A DNA stretch of 64,000 nucleotides, taken from assembly GCA_945957385.1 (NCBI GenBank), contig CAMFKP010000007.1, positions 1 through 64,000 of the forward strand, given 5' to 3'. Position 1 is the first letter of the stretch. Each line of letters opens with the position of its first letter. The stretch comes from an uncultured Aeromonadaceae bacterium. Its GTDB lineage: Bacteria > Pseudomonadota > Gammaproteobacteria > Enterobacterales > Aeromonadaceae. Both the position numbers and the translations under genes were made by a program. This document shows positions 13,537-21,272 of the stretch, piece by piece. The notes under the pieces were generated by a model. The model saw nothing but the letters and a program-made list of their open reading frames with translations. It made no database searches and had not been told where the DNA came from.

Positions 13537-15696
13537 TTAACGCCGGCGCCAACAGGTCACTTCGGAGCGCAACGCATGCAGATGACGCGCGTTATCGCGA
13601 CGCCAGAACAACAGCGCCTGCGGCGCATCCAGCTCATCACAATAGGGAGCCAGTAAGCGTTGCAGCGCCTGATAACTACCCAGCGCCTCGCCGTTTTCGC
13701 GGCGCCCACCGAGCCAGTTTTCCTGCGGTGTGATCGCCTCCTGCCACTGGTATGCCGAACTGAGCAGCAAGACACCGCCACGGTTGAGCCGCTGGACTAT
13801 CTCGGTCACAAAGCGCACCGGCTCGCGCAATTGCTCCAGCAGGTTGACCGCCAGCACCAGATCGTAGCCCTGATACACCGGCTTGAGGTTACAGGGATCC
13901 CCCTGACTAAAGTGCACGCGGGCAATCTGCTCAGCACCGATACCATGGCATGACAGCTGTGTCTCACGATAGTCCGGCAGCGCGCCCTCCAGCGGCAAGG
14001 CATAGCGGAACCGATCCTGGCGCGCCAGCATCAGGGCGACATCAATAAAGCGCGCCGAAAAATCCACGCCATCGACATGCGCAAAATAACGCGCCAGCTC
14101 GAAGCTGCCACGCCCCACCCCACAGCCCATCTCCAGTGCGCGACCACCAGCGGGCTGATAGCGCGCGGCCAACGCCGCCAACGTGACCCACGGATTGGCC
14201 GTAGCCGTCTCGGGCAGCGCCAGCTCGCCGGCCGGCGCACCGTACTGGCTCTCCAACGCCTGCGCTACCGGCAGATCGGTGACATACGGGTTGACCGCCG
14301 TATTTTCCTGATAGTTCGACACCAGATAGCGCAATCCGGCGTGTTGGAAGAAGTGGCGACGGAAAGCATAACGCGAATGGCGGATCGCCAGATTGCCCGA
14401 GGAGACCCAGGAGCCCCCCTTGATCAGATCATGGCGGCCATCGAAGGTGGGGGTCGAGAAGTCATCGTACAACGGATGAATTGCAAAGCCGTCGTAACCG
14501 TCGATCGGCGTCCGCGTCCATTGCCAGACGTTGCCGGCCACGTCGTAAAAATCCCCCTGCGCCATCATATCGACCGGACAGGAGGAGGCCCAATGAGCCA
14601 GATTCAAATTGGCTGCATGCTGGGGCCACTCGCCTTCCGGCCCCTCCAGTTGCGATGCCAGCTGACACCACTCCGCCTCGGTAGGCAAGGTGATGTTCAA
14701 GCCGGTTTGCGCCGCTTTCCAGCTGCAGAATGCCGCCGCTTCGAGCTGGTTAACCTCTACCGGCCAGTCCCACGGCATGGCGATAAGCTGACACAGGGTG
14801 CGCAGCTGCAGCGTAGTTTCCTGCTGCGGCTCTCCCACCCAGAAGGTCGGCATGCGCGCCTGGGCAAATTGACACCAACGCCAACCCTCCTCACTCCACC
14901 ACTGTGGCTGTTGATAGCCTCCCGCCAGCACAAATTCGTAATACTCGGCATTGCTCACCAACATGCGACTGGCCTGAAAGGGCGGCAGAGTGACCTGGCG
15001 TTGACCGTATTCGTTGTCCCAACCATAGGTGGTGTCTGCTTGCGGCTTGCCCAATCGTAGCGCTCCCCCCGGCACGCTGATCAGGCTGTTAGCCGGCACG
15101 GCCGACCTGTGCGGACGCCACTGCGGACAAACCGGCCATTGCGGCTGAGGCTGCACCTGGTTGAGCGGCAACTGTCGGATCAACACAGACGAGGTTTCCA
15201 GGTGAATACGTTCGTGCTCGATGCCCATCAGCACGGCCCAGGCCGGGCTGTGCCAGTCAATCGGTAACGAGAGCGGCATCGTATCGATGAAGTTCAGCAA
15301 CCGTGTTCGTACCTGCTGGCGATAGTCAGCCAAGGCCTCGACACTTGGCCAGTCATAGTGACTGTCGTTCAGATCATCCCAGCTCATCTCGTCAACGCCG
15401 ATGGCGACCATCGACTCGATACGCGGATCGATACGTTGGTCAATGAAGCGCCCGGCCAGCAGTTTGTTGATGAAAAACGCCGCGGTATGACCGTAATAGA
15501 AGATCAGCGGATGACGCAGTGGAATGGCTTTTTGATACCAGGCATCAGGACAGGCCAGACAAGAAAACAGCGCTTCGTAACGATCGAAGGTCTCGATAAA
15601 GTAAGCGCGGATCTGACGACGTTTAGCGGCAATGTCGTCACCACCCAGATCCAGTGTCGGCGTCATGGGTGCCAGAACAGGCAACTCGGGGCTCAT
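13537..15696 (-). CDS. ovoA: Ovothiol synthase OvoA (5-histidylcysteine sulfoxide synthase with methyltransferase domain)
   Basis: A 719-residue bifunctional enzyme. The N-terminal DinB-like and formylglycine-generating-enzyme-like part binds iron and joins cysteine to C5 of histidine with oxygen. The expected facial triad is visible as H70 (YYGHTAAFF), H161 and H165 (GIEHERIHLE). Later signatures include TEAEWCQLAS, GNVWQWTRTP and KGGSWVSSGN. The C-terminal part (about 480-719) is an S-adenosylmethionine methyltransferase with EMGCGVGRGSFELA, which in OvoA methylates the N1 (pi) nitrogen of the imidazole. ATG 15696 is chosen because GGGAGG lies 5-6 bases upstream; an in-frame start at 15777 is less likely. 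A separate lyase (OvoB) is normally needed to cleave the sulfoxide, and none is adjacent. The product would be an antioxidant thiol. Confidence 0.92.
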   Translation of the reverse strand: MSPELPVLAPMTPTLDLGGDDIAAKRRQIRAYFIETFDRYEALFSCLACPDAWYQKAIPLRHPLIFYYGHTAAFFINKLLAGRFIDQRIDPRIESMVAIGVDEMSWDDLNDSHYDWPSVEALADYRQQVRTRLLNFIDTMPLSLPIDWHSPAWAVLMGIEHERIHLETSSVLIRQLPLNQVQPQPQWPVCPQWRPHRSAVPANSLISVPGGALRLGKPQADTTYGWDNEYGQRQVTLPPFQASRMLVSNAEYYEFVLAGGYQQPQWWSEEGWRWCQFAQARMPTFWVGEPQQETTLQLRTLCQLIAMPWDWPVEVNQLEAAAFCSWKAAQTGLNITLPTEAEWCQLASQLEGPEGEWPQHAANLNLAHWASSCPVDMMAQGDFYDVAGNVWQWTRTPIDGYDGFAIHPLYDDFSTPTFDGRHDLIKGGSWVSSGNLAIRHSRYAFRRHFFQHAGLRYLVSNYQENTAVNPYVTDLPVAQALESQYGAPAGELALPETATANPWVTLAALAARYQPAGGRALEMGCGVGRGSFELARYFAHVDGVDFSARFIDVALMLARQDRFRYALPLEGALPDYRETQLSCHGIGAEQIARVHFSQGDPCNLKPVYQGYDLVLAVNLLEQLREPVRFVTEIVQRLNRGGVLLLSSAYQWQEAITPQENWLGGRRENGEALGSYQALQRLLAPYCDELDAPQALLFWRRDNARHLHALRSEVTCWRRR

Positions 15697-15890: not shown

Positions 15891-16052
15891 TTACAGCGAT
15901 AACAGCACAAAATCAAAGGGGGCCTGCTTGCCCCCTTTATGCTTGCAATAGCCGCGTTTGAACGCTTTTTTCTTGTCGGTCTCGACCGTTGAACGGTTGA
16001 ATTCGATGCTGTATTTGTGCACGAAATTCCGTACACCCTGCTTCTTGGCCAT
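15891..16052 (-). CDS. 53-residue basic protein with a hairpin inside its gene, possibly ArfA-like
   Basis: A gene too short for usual ORF cut-offs. ATG at 16052 is preceded by AAGGAGG at ideal spacing, and the frame runs 53 codons to TAA 15891-15893. The product starts MAKKQGVRNFVHKY, is strongly basic, and has a DKKKAFKRGYCKHKGG tract. Directly after the KHK codons comes a perfect 9-bp GC-rich stem-loop (15915-15938), still inside the frame, then GATTTTG and a stop 21 bases later. In ArfA genes a terminator or RNase III hairpin inside the frame creates a non-stop mRNA, and ArfA also ends in a basic Lys/Arg/Tyr/Lys-His tract. The exact ArfA signature KKGKGSY is absent, so this may instead be another family of short basic proteins of unknown function. 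The hairpin could also simply be the gene's terminator. Confidence 0.7.
   Translation of the reverse strand: MAKKQGVRNFVHKYSIEFNRSTVETDKKKAFKRGYCKHKGGKQAPFDFVLLSL
15915..15938 (-). terminator. Terminator-like hairpin inside the 53-residue gene
   Basis: On the leftward strand AAAGGGGGC and GCCCCCTTT pair perfectly (9 bp) around loop AAGCAG, followed by GATTTTGTG. The structure lies within codons 38-46 of the small gene, before its stop codon. The U tract is short and interrupted, so termination may be partial, or the structure could be an RNase III site. Confidence 0.75.
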
Positions 16053-16085
16053 TGAGGCCTCCTTCGATAATTGCTGGAGGAGAGA

Positions 16086-16108
16086 TGTCAGCGCGATGAG
16101 CGCTGACA
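16086..16108 (-). promoter_or_regulatory. Hairpin upstream of the 53-residue gene
   Basis: TGTCAGCGC and GCGCTGACA form a perfect 9-bp stem with loop GATGA (or its complement), 34 bases before the ATG at 16052. No T run follows, so it is unlikely to be a plain terminator for tyrB. It could be a leader structure or an operator. Confidence 0.5.
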
Positions 16109-16197
16109 GGGCGCATTATGCCACAGCGGCAAAGGTGCGGGAATGAGGCGGCTGGAGGAGCAACACAGGCCCGTCGGGATGACAGGCCTGGCAGTAC

Positions 16198-17391
16198 TTA
16201 TTGCACGGCGGCGAAAGCTGCCGCAACACGCGCAACATTGCTGTGGTTGAGGCCGGCCATGCAGACCCGGCCACTGGCGATCAGGTAGACACCAAACTCT
16301 TCGCGCAGACGTTCAACCTGTGCCGCACTGAAGCCGGTATAGCTGAACATGCCGCGTTGGGTCAGCAGAAAATCAAAGTTACGCTCCGGCAACGCCTGTT
16401 TAAGTGCCGACACCAGCACGGCCCGCATCTGCTCTATCCGGCAACGCATGGCCTCAACTTCGGACTGCCACTGGGCATTGAGCGCGGCATCGTTCAACAC
16501 CTTGCCCACCACTTGCGCGCCGAAATTGGCCGGGCTGGAGTAGTTCCGCCGCACTGTCGCCTTGAGTTGTCCCAGCACACGCGCCGCTTCCTCGGCGTTG
16601 TCGCACAGCACCGACAAACCACCGACACGCTCACCGTACAGCGAGAAGATCTTGGAGAACGAGTTGCTGACCAGCGCCGGCAAGCCGGCGGCCGTGATGG
16701 CACGGATCAGGTAAGTATCTGCCTCCAGTCCGGCACCAAACCCCTGATAGGCGATATCGAGGAAGGCGATCAGCTCGCGCGCCTTGAGCACCTCAATCAC
16801 CCGATCCCACTGGGCGTCGCTCAGATCAGCCCCGGTCGGATTATGGCAGCACGGGTGCAGCAGCACTATGCTGCGCGCCGGAAGCTGCTGCAGCGTCGAG
16901 AGCATGGCGTCGAGATTGACGCCGCCAGTGTCGGCATCGAAATAGGGGTAGCTGTGCACCTTGAAACCGGCACCGGCAAAAATCGCGATGTGGTTTTCCC
17001 ACGTCGGATCGCTGACCCAGACCTCAGACTCGGGGAAATAGCGCTTGAGAAAATCCGCCCCCACTTTCAAGGCCCCCGAGCCACCCAGGCTCTGAATGGT
17101 AGCGATTCGACCGGCCTGCAGCGCCGCAGAGTCGGCACCAAACAGCAAGCGTTGTACCGCTGTGCGGTACGCAGCCAGACCTTCCATCGGCAGATAGAGG
17201 CTCGCCTGCTGCATCTGGGTATGCAGATCGGCAATCGCCTGGCGCACTGAACCCAATTGCGGGATCACGCCCTCTTCGTTGTAGTACAGGCCGATACTCA
17301 GGTTGACCTTGTCGGCTCGCGGATCCTGACGGAATGTCTCCATCAGTGACAGAATCGGATCGCCCGCATAGGCGTCTACGTTTTGAAACAC
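16198..17391 (-). CDS. tyrB: Aromatic amino acid aminotransferase TyrB
   Basis: A class I PLP-dependent aminotransferase of about 397 residues that transfers the amino group between tyrosine, phenylalanine or aspartate and 2-oxo acids. It begins with the family signature [19 protein letters not shown]. The PLP lysine lies in [25 protein letters not shown] supports the cofactor ring, and GRVCMAGLN near the end holds the substrate-binding arginine. The GTG at 17391 is preferred because the family starts at this residue and GGAG lies 9 bases upstream. An in-frame ATG at 17427 overlaps the stop of the yitT-like gene and would add 12 unusual residues. The two genes are probably co-transcribed. A weak hairpin lies after the stop. 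Confidence 0.93.
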
Positions 17392-17426
17392 AGTCTTGCA
17401 CTCCGTTTTTACGTCAGCATCATCCA

Positions 17427-18041
17427 TTACACCGCATAACGTCCCGGGCGGTGATTCATGGCAATAATCAGGTTCAGGATGACGGCACCGACTACCGAGG
17501 CCAGCAGCATCGGCAGACTCACCACCAACAGGGACGCAGCTACGATACAGGCATCGACCACCATTTGGAATTTGCCGGCGCGAATACCGCTCTTATCCTG
17601 CAGATAAAGCGCCAGAATATTCAGCCCACCCAGGCTGGCCTTATGCCGGAACAGCACGATAAAACCGATGCCCATGATGACATTGCCAAACAAGGTGGCA
17701 TAAAAAGGGTTCAGGCTGTCGATATGGATGAAACGGCCATGCAGATCGGAAAAGAGTGAGAGCAACGCCACCGCACAGAAGGTTTTTAGCGTAAACGCTC
17801 GTCCCATCCGGCGTACCGACAGATAGTAAAACGGCAGATTCAGCACAAAAAAGGCCACGCCAAATGAGACATGAGTCAGGTAGTGCAGTAAAAACGCCAG
17901 ACCGGCGGTACCGCCGGTGAGCGCGCCGGCTTGACGCAATAATACGACGCCAAACGAAACCATTAGCGTGCCGAAAAGCAGAGCGAGGGAGTCCTCAATC
18001 CAGCTATGAGAGAGCGAGTGGGAGGGAATAATGTTATCCAT
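17427..18041 (-). CDS. YitT-family inner-membrane protein
   Basis: A 204-residue protein of the YitT (formerly DUF161) family with about five hydrophobic helices. It shows the family's N-terminal [25 protein letters not shown], with the conserved GGTAG, and a central [16 protein letters not shown]. Function in the family is not settled; transport of small molecules is often proposed. Only the N-terminal five-helix module is present, without the C-terminal soluble domain of Bacillus YitT. AGGGA lies close before the ATG at 18041. The stop TAA overlaps an ATG in the tyrB frame, so the two genes form a unit. Confidence 0.88.
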
Positions 18042-20849: not shown

Positions 20850-20937
20850 TGGCGGTGAGGGAGGGATTCGAACCCTCGATACGTTGCCGTATACACACTT
20901 TCCAGGCGTGCTCCTTCAGCCACTCGGACACCTCACC
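20850..20937 (-). tRNA. tRNA-Ser (GGA)
   Basis: An 88-base cloverleaf with the long variable arm typical of serine tRNAs (TATACGGCAACGTA). Acceptor arms GGTGAGG and CCTCACC pair, the anticodon loop reads CTGGAAA (GGA, reading UCC and UCU), the T arm has GGTTCGAATCC, and CCA is encoded. The first 21 bases also occur twice more upstream in a tandem array. Confidence 0.97.
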
Positions 20938-21207
20938 GTTTTTTGAACTCTTGTTTAGGCGTGAGTTCGTCACCTTTTTCCAGTGCTGTGGCTTGTGGCT
21001 GCGTCGCACGCGTTGCGTGCTTTCCTCATCGCCAGCTTCGCTGGCTTGGGGCAGCCACTCGGACACCTCACCGTTTTTTGAACTCTTGTTTAGGCGTGAG
21101 TTCGTCACCTTTTTCCAGTGCTGTGGCTTGTGGCTGCGTCGCACGCGTTGCGTGCTTTCCTCATCGCCAGCTTCGCTGGCTCGGGCAGCCACTCGGACAC
21201 CTCACCG
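20917..21207 (-). repeat. Tandem array carrying copies of the tRNA-Ser 5' end
   Basis: Two nearly identical units (20917-21051 and 21052-21185, periods 135 and 134) each start with the 21 bases that encode the tRNA-Ser 5' end (acceptor strand and first half of the D arm). They continue with about 113 bases of spacer. A third copy of the 21-base piece lies at 21186-21206, followed by a diverged version of the spacer start. Each spacer contains two small hairpins (GCCAGC-GAA-GCTGGC and GCACGC-AAC-GCGTGC). Only the leftmost copy leads into a full tRNA. This resembles, in mirror form, the rtT repeats after E. coli tyrT that carry tRNA 3' ends. Confidence 0.9.
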
Positions 21208-21272
21208 CTTTTGATTCCTTGTTTAAGGCGTGGAATCCCACCTACGTCTCGGCGTCATAGCGCAGAGGACGG

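Follow-up and report, generated by a model that had tools for sequence, protein, structure and literature searches.

The product of the 53-codon gene on the minus strand of the window (the whole 64,000-nucleotide stretch of DNA that was analysed) is likely a small basic factor for ribosome rescue. It belongs to the family DUF7230, which has not been recognised as a rescue family, and its mRNA is predicted to lose the stop codon at a hairpin. This function is inferred from an architecture and a Lys-His (KH) motif shared with known rescue factors, as the profile match to ArfA is not significant, and we have no transcript, protein or genetic data for it. The architecture itself, in which a hairpin lies within the reading frame or encloses its stop codon, is strongly supported by comparative sequence as a conserved feature of DUF7230.

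The frame runs from an ATG at 16052-16050 to a TAA at 15893-15891 and encodes a product of 53 aa. The original prediction, made before any database search, had called this frame with its AAGGAGG, a 9-bp hairpin 21 bases before the stop and a second hairpin in the leader, and all three held when the sequence was checked and the two hairpins were folded. The in-frame stem consists of AAAGGGGGC (15938-15930), the loop AAGCAG (15929-15924) and GCCCCCTTT (15923-15915), giving nine perfect pairs, or 10 if T15939:G15914 is included, and it is followed by GATTTTGT. From its position we predict that the mRNA ends at approximately 15909-15906, upstream of the stop codon. Among 5000 synonymous recodings drawn with the codon usage of the window, a perfect stem of at least 9 bp arose in only 29, and in only 11 together with a T-rich tail, while no stem of such quality with a tail was found inside a long ORF anywhere in the window (61 kb of frame). 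We therefore infer that a hairpin as good as this one is improbable by chance. The fold of the ORF tail has a z of -3.3, and none of 100 synonymous shuffles was equally good.

The leader hairpin (TGTCAGCGC/TCATC/GCGCTGACA, 16108-16086; -16.1 kcal/mol) is probably a 5' stem-loop of the DUF7230 mRNA near its likely 5' end, and it might possibly protect or regulate this transcript; both readings are inferences from sequence alone. A promoter scan found no sigma-70 promoter for the gene, which is solitary, its neighbours being ovoA and a gene for an aromatic amino acid transaminase, all three on the minus strand. Elsewhere in the window, a tandem array at 20917-21232 (135-bp unit, 2.4 copies, 95% matches) starts inside a tRNA-Ser(GGA) gene (20850-20937), one end of which is apparently duplicated in the repeats. 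The coordinates of the relevant features are collected in the table.

Table. Features of the DUF7230 gene and its surroundings in the window, and positions of DUF7230 in T4-like phage loci (numbered within each locus).
Feature	Position	Strand	Basis and remarks
DUF7230 gene, 53 codons + TAA	15891..16052	-	PF23876 profile match and translation; ribosome-rescue role predicted
Shine-Dalgarno sequence AAGGAGG	16058..16064	-	5 nt from ATG; read from sequence
Conserved basic core Asn9-His38 (NFVHKYSIEFNRSTVETDKKKAFKRGYCKH)	15939..16028	-	Family alignments; invariant Asn and Asp
Lys37-His38 codons (KH motif), directly 5' of hairpin	15939..15944	-	Homologue comparison
In-frame 9-bp hairpin, terminator-like	15915..15938	-	Fold, terminator scan and recoding test
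GATTTTGT tract 3' of stem	15907..15914	-	Sequence and terminator scan
Annotated TAA	15891..15893	-	Predicted missing from most transcripts; inferred from hairpin position
Leader hairpin, 9 bp	16086..16108	-	Fold z -4.9
Possible extended -10 element TGGCATAAT	16115..16123	-	By-eye reading only; just upstream of leader hairpin
Aromatic amino acid transaminase gene	16198-17427	-	NF006719
ovoA	13537-15696	-	TIGR04344/TIGR04345
DUF7230, T4-like phage locus L044	1486-1635		
DUF7230, T4-like phage locus L045	1480-1640		
DUF7230, T4-like phage loci L043 and L046	1513-1632		

Profile comparison shows the window protein to be a member of Pfam DUF7230 (PF23876; E 8.9e-10, 39 bits against a cut-off of 27), and it is also matched by PHROG 1359 (phrog_1359, 2.4e-7). 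The HMM search that the original prediction had proposed against ArfA and short basic families thus returned DUF7230 as the only Pfam match and no match to ArfA (PF03889). Neither library records a function for DUF7230 or PHROG 1359, no paper in the literature searched names DUF7230, and we found neither a solved structure similar to the window protein nor an NCBIfam match to it. We detected the family in 13 of the 369 Gammaproteobacteria sampled, in 13 of 296 genomes from the order to which the window belongs and in 155 of the 181 genomes of one family (f192, consistent with Methylomonadaceae); no plasmid-borne copies were found. A narrower alignment profile recovered only 4 loci in the genome contig collection, and an alignment of 9 mixed sequences proved too diverse to scan that collection with. 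Across the family the core ahead of the hairpin is nearly fixed and the peptide after it is variable, as would be expected if the tail is rarely made. Of 112 chromosomal homologues, 104 carry Lys-His, and the median distance from it to the start of the hairpin is 2 nt. One f192 genome (G458), with a weak tmRNA match, carries two copies (L121 and L122), in both of which the hairpin encloses the stop.

The position and conservation of the hairpin are shown by these 112 chromosomal homologues, in each of which we folded the segment that begins nine codons after a conserved Asp and extends 30 nt beyond the stop. We found a hairpin of -15 kcal/mol or lower in 106, lying wholly within the ORF in 88 and enclosing the stop in 18, and in none did it lie after the stop; the six without a strong hairpin are L006, L007, L008, L012, L014 and L143. 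The mean z against synonymous recoding was -3.45 for DUF7230 versus -0.52 for 114 neighbouring gene ends. A gap-free stem axis counted from the Asp codon is shared by 62 genes, with 85.7% of cells paired, and sliding the register by up to 6 nt left at most 51% of cells paired and at most 117 double changes. In the correct register, 349 cells differ from the commonest pair on both sides, compared with a mean of 106 and a maximum of 142 in shuffles. As these 62 sequences were picked for their common axis, the percentage paired is inflated by selection, and the double changes are the stronger evidence. Most of the sample comes from the single family f192, but hairpin-bearing members occur in at least six GTDB families (f1, f3, f18, f136, f137 and f192). 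In most relatives the stems are 20-30 bp long and lack a U-tract; we infer that the hairpin of the window gene resembles an intrinsic terminator, whereas most of the relatives' stems are more like an RNase III site. Many f192 stems (L056-L158) have CAGGAGG...CCTCCTG at their start; this string at the hairpin base, just after the core, resembles a Shine-Dalgarno sequence but may merely reflect Gln-Glu codons and pairing.

These relatives also decide between the two readings that the original prediction had left open, namely a family other than ArfA that relies on the same device or a gene whose terminator simply intrudes into its frame. The first is supported at the level of architecture by the homologues and by the ArfA control described below, with mRNA ends, tmRNA dependence and rescue activity still inferred, and the second failed. 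A hairpin that always lay after the stop in relatives would have refuted the proposal, and the only such case is L013, a 36-residue marginal member at the Pfam cut-off, outside the set of 112, with a terminator after its stop.

As a positive control, 30 genuine ArfA genes, including arfA of E. coli, were passed through the same pipeline. In 25 of them the hairpin encloses the stop and in five it lies inside the ORF (mean z -2.6), and it starts a median of 25 nt after the Tyr of KGKGSY, compared with 23 nt after the core Tyr position in DUF7230. The mRNA of arfA is truncated at its hairpin by termination or by RNase III (PMC8012679), and its non-stop nature is established (PMC8012679, PMC6299226). 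DUF7230 resembles ArfA (E. coli alternative ribosome-rescue factor A) in being a short basic protein whose ORF has a hairpin within or spanning its end and, in most members, Lys-His just 5' of that hairpin. It differs from ArfA in its taxa, in its mostly intra-ORF hairpins, in having phage members, and in lacking both KGKGS and significant profile similarity. The absence of the KKGKGSY signature from the window protein had been predicted correctly; Lys-His, which is common to ArfA and BrfA and contacts 16S U534 in the mRNA channel (PMC6881298), is present, though. The mRNA of brfA of Bacillus subtilis is truncated by a terminator internal to its coding region, giving a non-stop message (PMC6881298), and BrfA is like DUF7230 in this internal terminator, its U534-contacting Lys-His and its small basic C-terminus, but it is reported from Bacillaceae only. 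Of the features of the ArfA/BrfA-like class, DUF7230 shows a conserved hairpin in the ORF or enclosing the stop, a basic C-terminus with Lys-His, and a host tmRNA. The tail of one ArfA gene (L037), GNAPFDIL, resembles the GGKQAPFDFVL of the window protein, a likeness that probably arises because hairpins of the terminator type, when read in this frame, specify similar residues.

Two further rescue factors were considered as identities for the window protein. ArfT of Francisella tularensis, reported within a broad repeat family (PMC6299226, PMC6514570), is likewise basic, at approximately 40 residues, and release-factor dependent; unlike DUF7230, it has no terminator or RNase III site ahead of its stop, and it carries KKGGSTNKK (PMC6299226, PMC6514570). 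The window protein has no KGGS-type motif of this kind (PMC6299226), and ArfT is ruled out by motif and architecture, without a direct comparison to an ArfT sequence. ArfB (NF006718) is excluded because the 53-aa protein has no GGQ catalytic domain and no NCBIfam match.

The presence of tmRNA and the absence of ArfA in carriers are shown by the genomes themselves. A tmRNA in the host is required by the logic of non-stop control, and the window genome (G000) has a full-length one (266 bits); above-cut-off matches were found in 38 of 40 carriers, the other two (G733 and G458) having weak matches only. ArfA was absent from all 66 carriers tested, the window genome included, and ArfB from 50 of 58. 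As ArfB is present in the window genome, DUF7230 need not be the sole back-up there. A genome of the same genus (G001) has ArfA and no DUF7230 match, but it is only 65% complete. The mutual exclusion of ArfA and DUF7230 is suggestive and not proof, since ArfA is also missing from some non-carriers, in f192 and in one genus of the family that the window comes from; within a 61-genome set, two carriers without ArfA are not improbable, and ArfA absence is weak evidence on its own.

The simplest account is that DUF7230 would be an ArfA-like back-up factor from an unrelated family. The mRNA would end or be cut at the hairpin that starts just past the Lys-His codons, leaving most transcripts without a stop, and ribosomes would reach the mRNA end and stall. 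With tmRNA-SmpB working, the product would be tagged and degraded. If the protein works as ArfA and BrfA do, its basic C-terminus, which bears the Lys-His, would probe the vacant mRNA channel, and a release factor that cleaves the peptidyl-tRNA may be recruited by the conserved N-terminal half. Truncation of the mRNA, control by tmRNA, ribosome binding, use of a release factor and rescue activity are all inferred here from sequence alone.

DUF7230 is also encoded by phages. In T4-like phages it adjoins gene 52 (downstream), near asiA, and has no hairpin, and it is found in jumbo phages and viral contigs as well; a single-protein scan of viral contigs gave no match. In Citrobacter phage Ci1 the ORF is not annotated as a gene. 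In T4-like phages and in most of the other viral members there is no strong hairpin, and the protein stops 5-9 residues past Lys-His, approximately where a truncated bacterial product would. A hairpin has been retained in the jumbo phages CBB and Kaldavass: a 9-6-9 structure, AAAGGACGC-TATGAT-GCGTCCTTT, occupies the codons at which the window gene has AAAGGGGGC-AAGCAG-GCCCCCTTT, with two of nine pairs changed on both sides. A bolder reading is that DUF7230 is an independently evolved, release-factor-dependent rescue family common to bacteria and phages, in which bacteria keep it under non-stop/tmRNA control and T4-like phages have removed the hairpin, making it constitutively as their own rescue factor in infection. 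We offer this only tentatively, as the balance tips slightly against it.

It could be argued that DUF7230 represents a branch of ArfA itself, diverged so extremely that KGKGS has been replaced, and not an independent family. Its members have an equal size and an equal hairpin position, most have a YxRKxKH-like tract, which suggests remote homology by eye, and no genome was found with both ArfA and DUF7230. However, hhalign aligned only 7 columns of the two profiles (probability 7.6%, not significant), 2 of 100 column-shuffled ArfA profiles scored as high, KGKGS is missing, and four residues past the conserved Asp the window gene encodes Ala instead of Tyr. We consider this explanation unlikely. 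It is likewise unlikely that non-stop mRNA and tmRNA control are real but serve another role, such as that of a toxin gated by tmRNA or of a stress protein that binds ribosomes. In its favor, the sequence bears directly on regulation only, and a small basic protein could bind other RNA targets; against it, the KH motif is placed as in ArfA and BrfA (PMC6881298), and neither ArfA nor ArfB is present in the majority of the carriers tested. To our knowledge, no families besides ArfA and BrfA use non-stop-mRNA control, and both of these are rescue factors. That an ordinary gene has a terminator overlapping its 3' end by accident is very unlikely, as the terminator-like tail of the window hairpin taken alone is all that speaks for it, and accident would not have held the hairpin at a constant distance from the core across several GTDB families, with heavy compensatory change and with stems that are long, mostly without U-tracts and never placed after the stop in the 112 homologues.

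Reviews have considered further rescue factors to be probable and hard to detect by sequence similarity (PMC6881298, PMC8012679). The conserved in-ORF hairpin provides a route to one candidate, DUF7230, among methane oxidisers and further lineages, the majority of them apparently with neither ArfA nor ArfB. If DUF7230 is indeed a rescue family whose mRNA loses its stop, this would explain how the species that carry it could survive without trans-translation, would assign a function to one DUF and one PHROG, and would point to phages supplying a rescue factor of their own. It would also provide a search principle for further families, namely a small basic ORF with Lys-His and a hairpin before the stop.
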